A DNA stretch of 44,824 bases from Betaproteobacteria bacterium (GTDB lineage Bacteria; Pseudomonadota; Gammaproteobacteria; Burkholderiales; Ferrovaceae), in assembly GCA_028868905.1 (NCBI GenBank), contig JAGWTQ010000006.1:1-44824 (forward strand), given 5' to 3'. The position numbers and the translations under genes were made by a program. This document shows, one piece after another, positions 6,393 to 6,536 of the stretch (the stretch's first letter is position 1; every line of letters starts with the position of its first letter). The notes beneath the pieces are model-generated. The model was not told the origin of the DNA. It did no database searches and saw only the letters and a list, made by a program, of their open reading frames with translations.

Positions 6393-6429
6393 AAAAAAAA
6401 CCCGTGCCTGCTGTTTGAAGCGGCACGGG
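6393..6429 (-). terminator. Intrinsic terminator facing left
   Basis: On the minus strand, an 8-bp stem CCCGTGCC/GGCACGGG (6401-6408 with 6422-6429) and a 13-base loop is followed directly by eight Ts (A8 at 6393-6400 on the plus strand). There is no T-run on the plus-strand side, so it terminates leftward transcription only. No annotated leftward gene ends here. The nearest leftward reading frame to the right ends at 7562. The terminator is therefore the main evidence for a minus-strand transcript starting in this gap. Confidence 0.8.
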
Positions 6430-6536
6430 GACAAATGCCATGCGTACTGGCATCAGCCTGCCCTAGGGAGGAAGGCAGGCGTTGGGCTTGCACCAACCAG
6501 TTGATCAGAGTGCCCCTGGTCGGTTAAGTTCCCTAG
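6393..6536 (-). ncRNA. Candidate structured small RNA, antisense-oriented between engB and hemB
   Basis: Read on the minus strand, the gap between engB and hemB gives a chain of perfect hairpins ending in an intrinsic terminator. The stems, in plus coordinates, are ACCAG/CTGGT (6496-6520), an alternative GTTGG/CCAAC (6481-6497), GCCTGCC/GGCAGGC (6456-6480, 11-base loop), ATGCCA/TGGCAT (6435-6453) and the terminator stem (6401-6429). The loop of the 7-bp stem reads TTCCTCCCTAG in the RNA, a C-rich sequence complementary to Shine-Dalgarno motifs. Seven bases near the 5' end (CTAGGGA, 6536-6530) are perfectly complementary to TCCCTAG in that loop, so they could mask it. No convincing minus-strand promoter was found, so the 5' end is a guess. 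The engB and hemB reading frames do not use this region. It could instead be a 6S RNA or a known betaproteobacterial sRNA family that I cannot confirm by eye. Confidence 0.55.

Follow-up and report, generated by a model that had tools for sequence, protein, structure and literature searches.

The window, the whole 44,824-nucleotide stretch of DNA that was analyzed, carries on its plus strand two genes separated by a gap of 183 bases, the first of which we take to be engB (Pfam itself supports a ribosome-binding GTPase) and the second of which is hemB, with its ATG at 6574. A compact RNA gene lies on the minus strand of this gap (Table 1). It is single-copy in the source genome, and it is almost certainly a real, conserved sRNA gene.

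Table 1. Features of the engB-hemB gap and its flanking genes in the window
Feature	Position	Strand	Basis and remarks
sRNA gene, ortholog of Rfam anti-hemB RNA	6393..6498	minus	About 106 nt; ends placed by the promoter (5′) and by the terminator (3′)
sigmaE (RpoE)-type promoter	6505..6532	minus	−35 GGAACTT at 6526-6532, 16-bp spacer, −10 TCTGA at 6505-6509
Hairpin 1, at the 5′ end and not covered by the Rfam model	6481..6497	minus	Fold and covariation
Hairpin 2, presenting the C-rich loop	6456..6480	minus	Fold and covariation
C-rich loop CCUCCCU, likely seed	6465..6471	minus	Complement of Shine-Dalgarno-like AGGGAGG
Hairpin 3	6434..6454	minus	Fold; both-side changes within the window's family
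Intrinsic terminator with T8	6393..6429	minus	Fold and covariation
engB/ysxC GTPase gene, convergent neighbor	5788..6390	plus	MMR_HSR1 match; adjacency conserved
hemB, divergent neighbor	6574..7575	plus	ALAD, 448 bits

The predicted fold of the 106-nt RNA has a free energy of −49.1 kcal/mol (z = −3.95), and 1 of 200 dinucleotide shuffles folds equally well; for a 148-nt version z is −3.72 and none of 200 shuffles is as stable. The RNA ends in a terminator whose stem is formed by CCCGUGCC and GGCACGGG with three further pairs, followed by T8. A simple terminator scan with a loop limit of 8 did not list it, probably because its loop exceeds that limit, so the case for the terminator rests on the fold and on conservation. 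On these grounds the leftward intrinsic terminator proposed in the original prediction is confirmed, as are the three further hairpins placed upstream of it and the C-rich loop that one of them exposes.

Compensatory changes in the stems were sought among relatives in an alignment of 56 of 105 sequences, from which rows at least 82% alike had been removed. Standard pairs occupy 94.5% of the cells. Changes on both sides are present at 14 of the 17 pairs and in 91 cells, against 6.1 and 18.2 in shuffles, and neither value is reached by any of 500 shuffles; when the partner was slid by one to three columns as a control, all five measures fell strongly. Both-side changes are found in all five consensus pairs of hairpin 1, in all five of the terminator helix (helix 3), and in four of the seven of hairpin 2, where 99.2% of the cells are paired. 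The rows had been found or anchored through CTCCCT and some adjoining stem letters, a selection that partly accounts for the constancy seen in the loop and in helix 2; helices 1 and 3 are free of it. CTCCCT is also invariant in the 10 closer loci among the 18 of the window's family, and outside the order, where loci were found by a model and not by the motif, 30 of 39 retain it. The stems of the RNA covary across the 56 sequences.

At its curated cut-offs, Rfam has no match anywhere in the window, which fits the original description of the RNA as unannotated. In the covariance-model search, a match at this locus appeared at a relaxed threshold: RF02837 (anti-hemB, Burkholderia RNA 7) matches 6393-6482 over the full length of the model with 34.8 bits (E = 2.1e-6), below its curated cut-off of 49.5 bits. 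Relatives in the same family score 68.8 (L014), 49.6 (L031 and L032) and 44.9 bits (G003), so the homology is graded. We regard the window copy as a diverged ortholog of anti-hemB RNA and claim no formal Rfam membership for it. The anti-hemB RNA of B. cenocepacia, ncS04, is 105 nt long, with its 3′ end confirmed by RACE and its transcript seen on a northern blot (PMC5688073, PMC4603805). It co-purified with Hfq (PMC4603805, Table 4; PMC5688073), and in these two papers it carries a name but no known function. Anti-hemB/ncS04 and the window RNA have in common a location antisense beside hemB and engB, a hairpin with the C-rich loop CCUCCCU, a terminator hairpin and a length of about 105 nt. The window copy differs in falling below the Rfam cut-off and in having a terminator loop that is not C-rich, and Rfam's anti-hemB model lacks the 5′ hairpin present in the window RNA.

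RF02837 matches at E ≤ 0.001 were found in 49 of 61 genomes (the source genome and 60 relatives) and above the cut-off in 29, the figure of 49 being generous in that weak non-orthologous matches are included. Three of 14 control genomes match weakly, and some second matches in relatives are other RNAs. The other matches in the source genome were rejected by eye: the one on C13 resembles a spurious terminator, and the one on C98 falls in the 3′ UTR of a phasin-like gene and belongs to a different RNA, rich in C and U. This C/U-rich RNA, which reads TCTCCTCCTCCTTTATTG... and is followed by a terminator, is located at 1501-1572 of L003 (C98:17648-17719 of the source genome) and also in L042, L044, L045 and L049-L052. 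It is conserved mostly downstream of a phasin-like gene, has no Rfam match at cut-off, and by eye is like the S17/RF02278 double-hairpin RNAs. Two sRNAs of B. pertussis were set aside as counterparts of the window RNA: S17/CT_433, of which S17 adjoins coq7 and has a sigmaA promoter (PMC11722255), and CT_532, whose levels are reported to be the same in an rseA deletion (PMC12235514).

The spread of the RNA was followed with R1, a full-length model built from betaproteobacterial RNAs (56 source rows) with no promoter or flanks. The window copy, itself one of the 56 source rows, is matched over its full length with 50.1 bits. Of the 61 genomes, from which R1 was partly built, 43 have a match, a single one in each except G055, which has two. 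The 18 genomes with no match include all eight of genus g2 (G005, G012, G017, G022, G026, G029, G030, G031), which belongs to the window's family; these have no match at E ≤ 0.001 and possess rpoE, and in them the sRNA has been lost or has diverged past detection. Among 143 genomes spread over the class, 40 have a match, 38 of them outside the order, and 103 have none. A draw of 150 genomes over the phylum gave four matches, of which three fall within the order and the fourth lies outside the class; class members outside the order gave none. Thus the distribution outside the order is patchy, or R1 is too narrow. For the outside-order set, 39 of 40 matches were read, the second copy in G166 being left out; L277, which belongs to the same order, and L319, a repeat of L282, were dropped. 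Apparent tandem duplicates of the sRNA were seen in two genomes outside the order (L282/L319 at G166:C1, 904217-904536, and L302 at G188:C20). The sole match outside the class in the phylum draw, L321 (G272:C24), overlaps a weak suhB/mmgR match (RF00519, 28.1 bits), and a weak suhB/mmgR match was also seen in one betaproteobacterial locus, L017. Ordinary betaproteobacterial copies of the sRNA are carried by three metagenome bins (L101, L126, L149) whose titles name Klebsiella pneumoniae or Bordetella parapertussis, and the Klebsiella label, at least, looks wrong.

Upstream of the RNA gene, minus-strand positions 6532-6505 read GGAACTT-N16-TCTGA, a near-perfect fit to the sigmaE consensus. The strict pattern GGAACTTN{16,17}TCTNA has one match in the 1.75-Mb genome, at this locus, and the reversed control also has one. 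In the 10 closer loci of the window's family, GAACTT and TCTGA are invariant and the spacer is variable; the promoter score is at least 9 of 11 in 17 of the family's 18 loci and 7 in L019. The promoter was further scored in 80 named betaproteobacterial loci chosen by a pattern of the sRNA only, independent of the promoter, which at least 119 stretches match. Four had too little DNA upstream and were left out. Among the remaining 76, a score of at least 9 is reached in 58, against 6 for the best of 487 permuted motifs and 1.1 for their mean. The boxes begin 66-58 nt before CTCCCT in 57 of the 58 positive loci, with a spacer of 16 in 42 and of 17 in 16.

Transcript length was predicted in a set of 131 loci, of which 10 without an anchor and 3 with short upstream DNA were removed. 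A score of at least 9 is found in 96 of the 118 loci left (37 of 40 from the source genome and its relatives, 59 of 78 named). When the start is placed 6 nt past the −10 box and the end at the T-run, the median length is 104 nt (94 loci, 83 of which fall within 95-111 nt), compared with 105 nt measured for ncS04. Furthermore, hairpin 1, which covaries strongly, begins right at the start so placed, and thereby gives independent support to it. The sRNA of the window likewise has a sigmaE-type promoter at the right distance. The transcript envisaged originally reached 6536, and this was not borne out: positions 6505-6532 are a promoter-like element, and the RNA would span about 6393-6498. The proposed self-masking of the loop by CTAGGGA (6530-6536) fails as well, because this segment overlaps the −35 box and so lies outside the predicted transcript, upstream of its start; it is not kept in relatives.

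The source genome contains rpoE followed by a gene for an RseA_N-domain protein. Among 30 regions upstream of rpoE that were read, T/GGAACTT/A-N16-17-TCT is present in eight (L057, L058, L059, L064, L065, L066, L068, L072), a count without a control, and the region of the window's genus is not one of them. The source genome's own rpoE has no strong sigmaE site upstream, the best scoring 7 of 11. A looser promoter pattern gives 8 sites in the source genome against 15 for the reversed control, so a wider sigmaE regulon is not visible there.

From this sequence evidence, the sRNA is very probably driven by sigmaE. An unlikely alternative is that a same-family sRNA is transcribed by the housekeeping sigma factor and that the boxes belong to another ECF sigma factor or to a regulator. 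Such an alternative would accord with the steady level of ncS04 in the seven conditions of PMC5688073 Table 2 (biofilm, stationary phase, starvation, glucose medium, osmotic stress, low pH and low iron), a table that has no columns for heat or direct envelope stress. It would also accord with the several RpoE-like sigma factors in many relatives, and with the Comamonadaceae relatives, which keep the RNA but are missing the GAACTT/TCTGA boxes. However, the boxes fit the sigmaE consensus with its 16-17 bp spacing, the rpoE-rseA pair is present in the source genome, and similar boxes precede rpoE in the eight uncontrolled cases above. No link of anti-hemB RNA to sigmaE was found among the matches listed in the literature searched, which covered few subscription journals; "RpoE" occurs nowhere in the main text of the two ncS04 papers, and no sigmaE link is made there (PMC5688073, PMC4603805).

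Of the 18 named loci without a strong promoter match, 11 are named Comamonadaceae (Hydrogenophaga, Ramlibacter, Caenimonas), whose loci retain the RNA but have another conserved sequence upstream of it. In Hydrogenophaga and similar genomes (L086, L088, L095, L111, L117, L119, L141, L145, L158, L163), the sigmaE boxes are replaced by the palindrome TGTCA-N4-TGACA, beside which a conserved GTGTAACAT or TTGTAACAT stands in all of these loci but L086. The palindrome in place of the boxes suggests that another regulator may have taken over the same sRNA. In L089, L127, L130 and L137, Ramlibacter and Caenimonas among them, TTTGTTAAATTAC is found upstream of the sRNA instead.

The position of the RNA opposite the engB-hemB interval raises a second alternative, action in cis on hemB, by which the antisense transcript or its promoter would interfere with engB-hemB readthrough and tune haem synthesis. 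The RNA core lies antisense between the two genes in all 36 loci of the source genome and its relatives that hold both (five more hold engB only), and among the 80 named loci both genes are close by in 52, hemB alone in 7, engB alone in 2 and neither in 6, with 13 cut by an end. In addition, a review names hemB as the target predicted for the sRNA Bc7 of B. cenocepacia (PMC6321483). However, the coding region of hemB lies outside the RNA, and the RNA persists where hemB is missing or distant. Five of the six loci with neither gene have hemB about 1.5 kb away. In two Aquitalea loci (L113, L131) engB is on the same strand as the sRNA and upstream of it, and their 8 kb contain no hemB; the 8-kb locus L094 has the sRNA with neither gene. 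Nowhere among the 39 outside-order loci does hemB lie within about 1.5 kb of the sRNA. Moreover, the stems covary, a feature for which a purely antisense overlap would have no need. Regulation of hemB in cis is thus very unlikely. The original reading of a trans-acting sRNA gene, distinct from a hemB leader, is upheld by the RNA's own terminator, the promoter-like element upstream, conservation across the class and the hemB-free relatives. A 6S RNA or an RF02278-type toxic small RNA, both raised in the original prediction, or a twister-sister ribozyme has a negligible chance of being correct: neither 6S nor RF02278 matches at 6393-6536 at curated or relaxed thresholds, and the sub-threshold twister-sister match with the exact GGTGCAAGCCC (6454-6512, minus strand; 21.9 bits, E = 0.033, cut-off 34) was rejected because it stems from letters of the hairpin 1 loop, which are changed in close relatives though the stem is kept.

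Outside the order, 28 of the 39 loci have a convergent engB no more than 400 nt away and 21 have polA upstream, with either in 32, both in 17 and neither so arranged in 7. A sigmaE-like motif scoring at least 9 is present in 29 of them, in 24 at 4-8 nt before the match, against a mean of 0.43 for 500 permuted motifs, one of which reaches 13. ErsA of P. aeruginosa lies in the "polA-engB intergenic region" (PMC8575079), is sigma22-dependent and Hfq-dependent, and pairs with the algC ribosome-binding site (PMC6321483, PMC8575079). It resembles the window RNA in its engB-linked locus and sigmaE-type promoter (PMC8575079 for ErsA) and, compared by Rfam model and description, differs in its length of 132 nt and its U-rich unstructured pairing region (PMC5819304, PMC8575079). 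The ErsA model, RF01719 (Pseudomon-1/ErsA), has no match on 6200-6800 of the window at E up to 5, and it matches one of the 39 loci, L278 (30.0 bits, cut-off 50), where RF02837 scores 58.4. The sX13 RNA of Xanthomonas (RF02232) lies downstream of polA and has three stem-loops and C-rich loops; it is Hfq-independent and is described as confined to Xanthomonadaceae (PMC3771888). The alpha-r7 sRNAs occupy the polA locus of alphaproteobacteria (PMC3771888). RF02232 has no match on the window, and weak matches (33.1-37.9 bits, cut-off 50) in six of the 39 loci (L288, L300, L303, L305, L311, L312); in five of the six, RF02837 matches at the same place, with a higher score in three and a lower one in two. 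RF02837 itself is found at E ≤ 0.1 in 35 of the 39, above its cut-off in 5, and ar14, a C-rich alphaproteobacterial family, matches three weakly (L285, L296, L313; 30.9-38.6 bits, cut-off 58.8). Spot 42 of E. coli (spf, RF00021) occupies the same slot, in the order polA, spf and convergent yihA, the last of which is presumably engB. It serves catabolite control and is not known as a sigmaE sRNA. R1 has no match in the Spot 42 region at E up to 10, and RF00021 is the only family listed there. Rfam has no clan for anti-hemB, ErsA, sX13 or Spot 42.

Taken together, the window sRNA most likely represents the betaproteobacterial branch of the engB/polA-locus sRNAs to which ErsA and sX13 belong. Judged by sequence and synteny, common descent with ErsA and sX13 is a fair bet, which we lowered slightly because weak cross-matches to ar14 also occur and the spread is patchy. 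The broader reading, lowered for both of these reasons, is more tentative: a single sigmaE-controlled C-rich sRNA may reside beside engB across beta- and gammaproteobacteria, with anti-hemB, ErsA and sX13 as branches, Spot 42 in the same slot of enterics under other control, and the window RNA as a diverged copy of this ancestral RNA of the envelope-stress response. Held together with this reading, and no more firmly, is the view that the name anti-hemB is only positional.

For sigmaE dependence, use of Hfq in the source organism, the mechanism of pairing and the targets, what we infer is the following. Cell-envelope stress would lead RseA to release RpoE, which would transcribe the sRNA from its sigmaE-dependent promoter, a step proposed because of the promoter sequence and its conservation. 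The RNA of about 106 nt would fold into three hairpins and a U8 terminator, and its U-tail would be bound by Hfq, since ncS04 co-purifies with Hfq and hfq is present in relatives. It was found in all 31 genomes at least 90% complete and in 39 of 41 overall, and was not found in the source genome, which is incomplete. The CCUCCCU loop of hairpin 2 would then pair with AGGGAGG-like start regions of selected mRNAs and block translation; this is proposed because the loop is conserved and because repression by sX13 needs C-rich loops and G-rich motifs near target start codons (PMC3771888). Compensatory mutations in the sX13 system failed to restore repression (PMC3771888). ErsA of Pseudomonas offers a second analogy for this mechanism (PMC6321483, PMC8575079). 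The original suggestion of a C-rich loop facing ribosome-binding sites is supported by this analogy and by conservation, and by analogy the sRNA is likely to be a ribosome-binding-site repressor acting through that loop. As a whole, the reading that we consider probable is that of a single-copy, trans-acting, sigmaE-dependent sRNA whose CCUCCCU loop would block G-rich Shine-Dalgarno regions.

The idea of a repressing sRNA driven by sigmaE is shared with MicA, RybB and VrrA of other gammaproteobacteria, whose known targets are outer-membrane proteins. For MicA, outer-membrane targets are stated in PMC12235514. In relatives, AGGGAGG is found within 35 nt of none of 37 porin-like starts, one of which (L232) carries AGGGAG, and no porin was found in the source genome; porins do not fit as targets of the window sRNA. 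Across seven genomes, 53 sites of the pattern AGGGAGGA-N3-10-ATG were counted, compared with 10 of the reversed pattern used as a control. A gene that by eye resembles a FAD-oxidoreductase carries it in four of the five genomes of the genus (G000, G001, G002, G004). This gene may be a target but is a weak lead only, because the pattern is what one would expect of any strong ribosome-binding site and G000 and G001 are near-identical.

The anti-hemB/ncS04 family is already known; what is new, and testable, is its promoter of sigmaE type and its likely kinship with the sRNAs of the engB/polA locus. No description of an sRNA arm of the betaproteobacterial sigmaE response was found among the matches listed in the literature searched. 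If the proposed reading is true, an Hfq-bound sRNA without a function would gain a probable signal, envelope stress via RpoE, and a mechanism, and the sigmaE response of betaproteobacteria would gain an sRNA arm.
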